From Gammaproteobacteria bacterium (GTDB lineage: Bacteria > Pseudomonadota > Gammaproteobacteria > Ga0077536), in NCBI GenBank assembly GCA_019747795.1, contig JAIEQK010000071.1:1-52822 (forward strand): 52,822 nt of DNA, in the 5' to 3' direction. Every line of letters begins with the position of its first letter. The stretch's first letter is position 1. Below, piece after piece: positions 40,457-41,766 of the stretch. Under the pieces are notes generated by a model. That model searched no databases, was not told the origin of the DNA, and was given only the letters and a program-made list of their open reading frames with translations. The position numbers and the translations under genes are program-made.

Positions 40457-40539
40457 TTGCCCTGTGTGATACGTCACTTGAGGTGCCGCGCCGGTGGTGT
40501 GATAGTCACGCAGATCGCCACGCATGCAAGGAGGCTTCG

Positions 40540-41766
40540 ATGGACGCTCAGACAACGGTCGATACCCACGCGCTGGTCTATGCCAAGGAACGCAGCCTGT
40601 TCGCCCTGTCGGTGCTGATCGGCAGCATCGCATGGATCGCGCTGGTGGTCGGCACCCTGGGTATCGCGCTGGTCTACGCGCTGTTCGGGCTGCTGGCGTT
40701 TCTGCTTGCGCATTCGGCGCTCATCTCCCACCTGCGCGGCAGTGGCGTGCGCATCACCGCCGAACAGTTTCCGGACCTGCACGCGCGACTGCTGCACTGC
40801 TGCCGCACGCTCGGCATCGATACGCCGCCGGAAGCCTATCTCCTGCAGGCGGGCGGCTCGTTCAATGCCTTCGCGACGCGTTTCCTGGGGCGCAATTTCG
40901 TGGTGCTGTTCTCCGACGTGGTGGACGCCCTCGAGGATGACCCTGACGCGATCAACTTCTATTTCGGCCACGAACTCGGGCACCTGCACCGCAAGCATCT
41001 GCAATGGGCGCCCTTGCTGTGGCCGGCCGGCATGCTGCCGCTGTTGGGCGCGGCCTACTCCCGCTCGCGGGAGTACACCTGCGATGGTTATGGCGCCGCC
41101 TGCTGCGGCAGCCCGCAGTCCGTCGCCCATGGCATCGCCGCGCTCGCCGCCGGACACCGTCGCTGGCGCGTGTTGAATGTCGATGCCTTCCAGCGCCAGG
41201 CGCTGGACAGCGGTGGGTTCTGGATGTCGTTCAATGAGCTGATTGCCGACTACCCTTGGCTCAGCAAGCGCATGGCGCGCCGCCTGACGCATGACTATCG
41301 CCCGCCGTCGCGCCACGGCCTCGCCTGGATGCTGGCCGCCGTGGTGCCACGTCTGGGTGGCGGCGGCGCGGGCGGGATGCTGGTCACGCTCTTCGCCGTC
41401 GGCATCCTGGCCGCGGTGGCGGTGCCCGCCTACCAGGATTACACGGTGCGCGCCAGGGTAACCGAAGGCCTGCGCCAGGCCGACAGCGTGAAGACGGCGG
41501 TGGCGCAGCATTACGCCGAGCACCAGTCGGCCTGCGCCAGCAACGACGAGTGCGCGCTGCCCGCGCCCGAAACGCTGGGCAACGACGTGGTCGAGAGCAT
41601 CGCTGTCGGCGATGACGCGAGCGTCACCGTGACCTATGGACTCCCGGCCATCGCCTCGCGCACCGTGGTGTTCGAGCCGAGTCTGGACGCCTCTGGCACG
41701 CTGACCTGGCGCTGCACCGGCGGCACCCTCGAAGCCAAGTATCGTCCAAGCGCCTGTCGCGAATAG
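40540..41766 (+). CDS. M48 metallopeptidase fused to a type IV pilin-like domain
   Basis: A 408-residue two-part membrane protein. Residues 20-60 form hydrophobic segments. The M48 domain (about 70-260) has zinc motif HELGH at 144-148 and a third ligand candidate E178 in SREYTCD. A hydrophobic segment from about 280 begins a pilin-like domain (to 408): AVGILAAVAVPAYQDYTVRA, VTEGLRQADSVKTAVAQHYA, SVTVTYG and TWRCTGGTLEAKYRPSAC, with the two C-terminal cysteines (391, 406) typical of pilin D-loops. The prepilin peptidase site (G/FTLIE) is absent, so it would not be processed like a pilin. GGAGG precedes ATG 40540. Whether it cleaves pilins or merely presents a surface domain is unknown. Confidence 0.9.
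   Translation: MDAQTTVDTHALVYAKERSLFALSVLIGSIAWIALVVGTLGIALVYALFGLLAFLLAHSALISHLRGSGVRITAEQFPDLHARLLHCCRTLGIDTPPEAYLLQAGGSFNAFATRFLGRNFVVLFSDVVDALEDDPDAINFYFGHELGHLHRKHLQWAPLLWPAGMLPLLGAAYSRSREYTCDGYGAACCGSPQSVAHGIAALAAGHRRWRVLNVDAFQRQALDSGGFWMSFNELIADYPWLSKRMARRLTHDYRPPSRHGLAWMLAAVVPRLGGGGAGGMLVTLFAVGILAAVAVPAYQDYTVRARVTEGLRQADSVKTAVAQHYAEHQSACASNDECALPAPETLGNDVVESIAVGDDASVTVTYGLPAIASRTVVFEPSLDASGTLTWRCTGGTLEAKYRPSACRE

Follow-up and report, generated by a model that had tools for sequence, protein, structure and literature searches.

A conserved fusion of an M48-type membrane protease with a type IV pilin domain that has no prepilin cleavage site

The fusion gene and its family

The stretch of DNA analysed here (the window, 52,822 nucleotides) encodes, on its forward strand, an M48-pilin fusion protein of 408 amino acids in one single open reading frame (40540–41766, ATG to TAG, 408 codons plus stop), as judged from the frame itself, Pfam and a conserved family of homologues. 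A Shine-Dalgarno-like AAGGAGG, read in the sequence at 40528–40534 (+), ends five bases 5' of the ATG, and neither a sigma70-type promoter nor a terminator was found around the gene. The encoded protein, all parts of which lie on the same strand, begins with a membrane hairpin (TM1 and TM2, residues 18–65, 40591–40734) whose connecting loop is nearly uncharged, followed by an M48 gluzincin domain (residues 76–248, 40765–41283) with HELGH at 144–148 and Glu178 within EYTCD. According to alignment and charges, the subsequent linker (residues 249–279, 41284–41376) is first positively charged, then glycine-rich, and sits at the position of a prepilin's leader and cleavage site. Alignment and structural model assign the third membrane helix, TM3 (residues 275–303, 41362–41448), to the alpha1-N helix of pilins. 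Residues 304–408 (41449–41763) comprise alpha1-C and a pilin head with Cys392 and Cys406, which is probably periplasmic.

Pfam recognized both halves well above threshold: Peptidase_M48 (PF01435) at residues 76–154 (E 4.2e-14, 53.2 bits versus a gathering score of 20.3) and Pilin (PF00114) at residues 303–407 over the full profile (E 1.5e-16, 61.7 bits versus a cut-off of 22). In addition, the pilin half matched a Neisseria pilin sequence at 2.1e-12. Scanning genome contigs, we obtained 42 loci from other genomes, and 40 of these were aligned with the window protein and one relative's copy (L048) to give the 42 rows of alignment A1. The loci in A1 span from before residue 30 to past residue 270; L042 and L043 were omitted as partial matches, copies duplicating the window or L004 were dropped, and one row (L035) has no pilin head. 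At E ≤ 0.01 the M48 profile was found in all 42 members and the Pilin profile in 36.

Thus, the same domain order exists elsewhere, as a one-protein fusion in each of the 42 aligned rows, which the initial annotation had put up as a check. An assembly error that joined two genes was considered and is ruled out by the same fusion in isolate genomes and on long contigs, several of which reach hundreds of kilobases. Among the hosts are Marinobacter, Gilvimarinus, Duganella, Comamonas, Psychromonas and Methyloversatilis. One locus (L010) stems from a metagenome-assembled genome listed as Helicobacteraceae; its fused pilin groups inside Marinobacter and the taxonomy of the bin is doubtful. Of 58 related genomes, 40 gave some match to the fusion, mostly via stand-alone pilins, while three encode it at near full length (G000, which is the window's own genome, G010 and G001) and G003 has a partial frame. 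In a sample of the class (369 genomes), 13 matched the M48 part at 1e-10; a pilin-type helix is carried by five of the six that did so at 1e-40. Nine of 398 genomes in a sample of the phylum matched at 1e-30; six have M48 plus helix, one of them (G536) from outside the class. These counts therefore describe a family that is widespread but patchy. In the literature searched by title and start of abstract, preprints excepted, we found no description of an M48-pilin fusion.

An M48-type protease part with an altered plug motif

The HEXXH residues H144, E145 and H148 and the third zinc ligand, E178, are invariant in all 42 aligned members. The best HtpX score among NCBIfam models was 24.4 bits, far under the model cut-offs of 245 to 422. 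Peptidase_M56 was absent among the Pfam matches of the window protein at E ≤ 1 and matched one of the 42 members (E 0.0024), and phmmer found no PDB sequence for the M48 part at E ≤ 1. An AlphaFold model built from A1 (mean pLDDT 87.9) contains two N-terminal helices (residues 17–38 and 42–68) and a mixed catalytic core, in agreement with the peptidase with N-terminal membrane helices that had been annotated initially. VIA-align matched the M48 part to ZMPSTE24 (Z 10.6, 190 aligned, rmsd 3.4), BlaR1 (Z 10.4, 182 aligned, rmsd 4.6), BepA (Z 9.2) and the HtpX domain (Z 7.3). The BlaR1 match does not show a shared function, since its Z is tied with that of ZMPSTE24 and is of a size at which, for helical models, the tool cautions that the arrangement may simply be a common one. 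With the M48 proteases HtpX, ZMPSTE24/Ste24p and BepA the fusion shares HEXXH, the distal Glu and the gluzincin fold; it differs from them by a YPX4R motif, a C-terminal pilin and the lack of any HtpX model match at cut-off.

PMC7950410 describes an HPX4R active-site plug that is shared across the whole Pfam M48 family. The His of this motif acts as a fourth zinc ligand and is thought to need displacement; the BepA variant H246N appears deregulated (PMC7950410). At the corresponding place the window protein reads ADYPWLSKR (residues 236–244, 41245–41271, +), that is, the form YPX4R with Tyr238, Pro239 and Arg244, and these three residues are present in 42 of 42 aligned rows where HPX4R is found in none. 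We extended the survey to 21 loci beyond A1, 10 with a pilin helix and 11 without, of which L042 (its frame departs early from the match) and L086 yielded no plug motif. YPX4R recurred in all 10 further helix-bearing loci, hence in 52 of 52 altogether; Pro22 in these extra loci is no evidence, because the helix pattern used there requires it. Homologues without pilin helix, in contrast, have HP in eight of nine readable cases, YP in none and QP in one (L082). As far as these sequences go, the change from His to Tyr marks the fused branch. The count is not independent, as the rows share descent and the change may have been one event. Given YPX4R in place of HPX4R, we therefore file the protein only as a divergent M48-type protease.

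Three further observations concern this part and its relatives. Near the zinc-binding Glu178, cysteines 181, 188 and 189 (CDGYGAACC, residues 181–189, 41080–41106) occur in 42, 38 and 41 of the 42 rows, and a cytosolic redox role is possible. A helix-less homologue with an HP plug, L081 (G234:C193), carries a different C-terminal domain with weak likeness to the pseudopilin GspG (phmmer E 0.075); as this value is weak and no Pfam pseudopilin matched, we do not claim such a relationship. The distant homologue L082 (G239:C142) has a C-terminus that resembles, by eye, an FHA domain.

A pilin part without the residues for assembly

The initial annotation had placed a C-terminal pilin module at residues 270–408, with a DYTVRARVTEG segment and a cysteine pair. 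The segment is present and the pair (Cys392/Cys406) is found in 41 of 42 rows, the exception being the headless L035; the limits were refined to a start at about residue 275. In the model, one long helix (residues 276–328) leads into a four-stranded head with strands between 351 and 395. All seven Foldseek matches at E ≤ 0.001 were Neisseria pilins, and VIA-align superposed 4v1j (Z 14.8, rmsd 1.8, 111 aligned, residues 296–408) and 2hi2 (Z 14.6, rmsd 1.8, 132 aligned, residues 275–408). The Comamonas members have an altered head; a second model, of a divergent member from this genus (pLDDT 85.6), still gave pilin matches with Z up to 9.2 over residues 301–415. The predicted fold is pilin-like, so the objection that the domain might not be a pilin by structure falls away.

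Compared to a prepilin of the GFTLIE type from its own genome (L001), the window protein is identical at 22 of 24 positions from Gly14 onward but shows no identity at pilin positions 1 to 13. Across the aligned rows, Gly14 (G288 in the window protein) and Pro22 (P296) are kept in 42/42, whereas Phe1 and Glu5 are found in 0/42; position 5 is Ser in 31, Gly in 10 and Pro in one. Gly14 is altered in L049 and L169, both outside A1. The pattern for the prepilin motif had no match anywhere in the 42 proteins, which bears out the absence of a cleavage site noted initially. The fusion has the fold, alpha1 from Gly14 on and the terminal cysteine pair in common with type IVa pilins (PilE/PilA, PF00114), but it lacks leader, cleavage site, Phe1 and Glu5 and is joined to a protease. 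Cleavage by PilD and assembly into a pilus should both be impossible for such a pilin.

The initial annotation had further suggested a membrane peptidase that displays, or is tethered to, a pilin fold. Tethering stands, with a conserved pilin that has no cleavage site; display in a pilus is unlikely because both Glu5 and the cleavage site are absent. Pilus entry with the protease carried to the base or tip seems extremely improbable: the fold and the retained Gly14 and Pro22 would fit, but in 42 of 42 rows Glu5 and the cleavage site are missing and the protease replaces the leader. A different arrangement is reported for CpaL of Caulobacter, a minor pilin fused to vWA and linked to surface sensing (PMC12607857). 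The model for CpaL places it at the tip of the pilus, from which vWA projects outward, whereas the added domain of the fusion precedes the helix and entry into a pilus is not expected.

About five lysines and arginines per protein lie ahead of TM3, and next to none in the TM1-TM2 loop. From this charge distribution the positive-inside rule puts the protease inside and the head outside, and we infer a cytosolic protease with a periplasmic head, as in BlaR1, whose gluzincin is described as facing the cytosol with the sensor outside (PMC9834060). The order of parts predicted for the fusion, a membrane-embedded cytosolic gluzincin followed by an extracytoplasmic domain, agrees with that of BlaR1/MecR1 (M56). 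There are also differences. The fusion has a pilin where BlaR1 has its penicillin-binding sensor, no repressor gene was seen nearby, and two helices are modelled ahead of the catalytic core compared to four membrane helices described for the BlaR1 protease part. We regard the fusion as a variant among M48-type membrane proteases, perhaps BlaR1-like in its working, and outside both M56 and the filament-forming pilins.

Conservation is uneven along the protein. Mean pair identity, measured on the 26 A1 rows left after thinning at 75% identity, was 0.77 around HEXXH, 0.75 for residues 226–248, 0.43 for TM1 and 0.62 for TM2. Within the pilin part it was 0.59 for TM3/alpha1-N, 0.25 for alpha1-C and 0.30 for the head. 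Three members (L035, L078 and L169) stop shortly past the helix, yet keep a pilin-type helix; searches for head remnants in the surrounding DNA gave just weak matches (E 0.014 or worse), none of them downstream on the coding strand. Within the pilin module, stability thus resides in the membrane helix, which is the best conserved and is kept where the head is lost. Part of this conservation may be ancestry, since alpha1-N is conserved in any pilin. Moreover, a generic membrane helix would likewise be retained, and TM2 is as conserved as TM3.

Median dN/dS was 0.044 for the M48 part (residues 14–272), 0.064 for residues 273–303 and 0.121 for residues 304–408, with 49, 47 and 42 usable pairs, respectively, among 63 close pairs that are nearly all from Marinobacter and in many cases have high dS. 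In the close pairs tested, these codon ratios show purifying selection on all parts. They bear on the notion of a gene-fusion relic whose pilin part decays without function, which we consider very unlikely. The lost heads of L035, L078 and L169 and the altered one in Comamonas would be in line with decay; against it stand the low ratio for residues 304–408, the near-invariant cysteine pair and the Comamonas head that models as a pilin.

In head trees, the window's head grouped with unfused pilins belonging to its own family, and the other fused heads mostly fell into separate clades. A single clade of fused heads was not rejected (AU p 0.163 with 48 rows, 0.105 with 56 rows). The first tree had 69 rows; 21 were dropped by hand before the 48-row tree, namely 10 nearly identical Marinobacter rows and 11 that were long or divergent. 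Before the 56-row tree 13 rows were dropped by hand, and one own pilin, L146, was removed by a cysteine filter. Swapping of heads stays a suggestion, because rows were dropped by hand and the AU tests followed sight of the first tree.

Genomic context and possible functions

The neighbours in the window are of metabolic type. An amidase is encoded directly upstream; the others are a flavin oxidoreductase, an alpha-amylase-type enzyme, proteins resembling epoxide hydrolase and Vgb-lyase/SMP-30, and one that matched nothing in Pfam. Across 41 loci (crude gene calls, up to 6 kb), no neighbour cluster occurred in more than eight, and those were all from Marinobacter. Ten shared neighbours were annotated, all of housekeeping or signalling type: topoisomerase I, citrate synthase, a thiolase, a dehydrogenase, a succinate dehydrogenase/fumarate reductase flavoprotein, a valyl-type tRNA synthetase, an M17 aminopeptidase, an AMP-binding enzyme and two response regulators, one of them GGDEF-EAL. 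Neither the window neighbours nor these ten included a pilus gene by Pfam, and no BlaI-like repressor was among the ten. In four of the 41 loci (L011, L022, L030 and L035), from three genera, the fusion has a GGDEF/EAL response regulator as a neighbour within 6 kb, at varying positions; we give it no weight, because the gene type is common and this may be chance.

Presence of the retraction motor PilT was not enriched among genomes with the fusion (31 of 35, versus 192 of 229 in the class sample, p 0.62), where the class count may be low, as only 8 candidates per genome were scored, and its sample contains some carriers. The 35 genomes comprise eight from the genome searches and 27 of the 42 scanned loci; one of them (G234) has only a helix-less homologue, and excluding it PilT is found in 30 of 34. 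PilT did not reach the cut-off in four genomes: G000, G003 (62% complete), G375 (85% complete) and G404 (a partial match). In the window's own genome G000, with a listed completeness of 99%, no protein exceeded the TIGR01420 cut-off for PilT, perhaps through loss of the motor or an assembly gap, although a true prepilin, PilM and a prepilin peptidase are encoded.

Is the protein a sensor that truly works as BlaR1 does? Its periplasmic head would bind an outside signal, such as surface contact, DNA or a ligand, upon which the cytosolic protease would cleave a transcription repressor. The predicted layout is like that of BlaR1, and the profile of the DNA-binding minor pilin ComP (ComP_DUS) matched 10 of the 42 members at E ≤ 0.01 (best 8.2e-05). 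But these weak ComP matches may reflect the pilin fold alone, some members are headless, no neighbour cluster recurs in more than the eight loci mentioned, and the annotated neighbours lack a BlaI-like repressor. We consider this explanation quite unlikely.

Our tentative preference, held at somewhat less than even confidence, is a zinc protease of M48 type in the inner membrane that acts as a pilin-guided sensor or in quality control and has a permanently tethered, non-polymerising type IV pilin as its third membrane helix and periplasmic domain. Within the membrane, the pilin-like helix would dock to pilins that are not assembled, or to the platform that assembles them, comparable to PilA and PilS. 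Docking would control or target the cytosolic active site, which would be located where the leader of a (neighbouring) prepilin lies. As output, surplus or misassembled pilin-system proteins may be degraded, or a cytosolic regulator cleaved. We favour reading of pilins via TM3 because the order of parts equals that of BlaR1, the input is a pilin, and the Pseudomonas kinase PilS is reported to interact with PilA and thereby to read membrane-held pilins (PMC6058289). In its favour we count the conserved fusion, TM3 as the best kept stretch of the pilin part, the survival of the helix upon head loss and a YP plug that tracks the helix. Against it count the absence of pilus neighbours, the missing PilT enrichment and a host without PilT over the cut-off. 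The protein may also process or anchor pilins or sense surface contact, as the initial annotation had suggested; for these roles the conserved and retained helix is indirect support, and the last three points likewise speak against them.

If this pilin-reading protease exists, pilin turnover becomes testable with one gene. PilS-PilR in Pseudomonas is a known gauge of pilins in the inner membrane, and a conserved protease with a built-in pilin helix would add a second, direct route. The fusion-linked exchange of the plug His for Tyr offers a concrete way into the question of how activity is switched on in M48 proteases. A wider generalisation is rather doubtful: Proteobacteria might use a single-chain surveillance protease for the type IV pilus system, in which the captured pilin helix is a bait that reads unassembled inner-membrane pilins and loss of the plug His puts the active site under control of the helix, and, more broadly, tethered non-cleavable pilins might be an unrecognised class of pilin-reading membrane proteins.

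The strongest rival is a general, HtpX-like membrane quality-control protease with a pilin head as a borrowed periplasmic module for ligand binding, anchoring or dimerisation and no link to pili. We hold it to be quite possible, if short of an even chance. It is the strongest because tethered heads are also found with GYF_2, with ankyrin, DUF2628-like or lipoprotein-like proteins and, in the window's own genome, with a bare anchor; such heads without prepilin motif recur on unrelated anchors, and the fast evolution of the head, the lack of pilus neighbours and the missing PilT enrichment agree with it. What speaks against a borrowed head is that the helix, not the head, is conserved and that three headless members retain such a helix.

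Judged by their sequences, non-cleavable pilins are a recurrent class on differing anchors, and they are a warning that a match to PF00114 does not always mean a pilus subunit. The XAC3805-type DUF4339 (GYF_2) proteins of Xanthomonas and Lysobacter are described as pilin-like, without prepilin leader and away from pil genes (PMC10333488, PMC4960238); the N-terminal domain of the fusion differs from theirs. Among our loci, L127 (G047) carries a pilin head without prepilin motif on GYF_2 and is likened to XAC3805 by domain type. Corresponding heads were seen in L119 (G201, DUF2628-like, below cut-off), L121 (G090) and L129 (G036), both large and lipoprotein-like by eye, L128 (G049, an ankyrin protein) and L120 (G154, a two-helix protein). 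A further pilin head in the window's own genome is attached to a bare membrane anchor of unrelated type, L126 (G000:C69:3500-5385; 265-aa frame at 796–1593), which matched Pilin at E 7.7e-11 for a 152-aa reading and has no alpha1-N motif.
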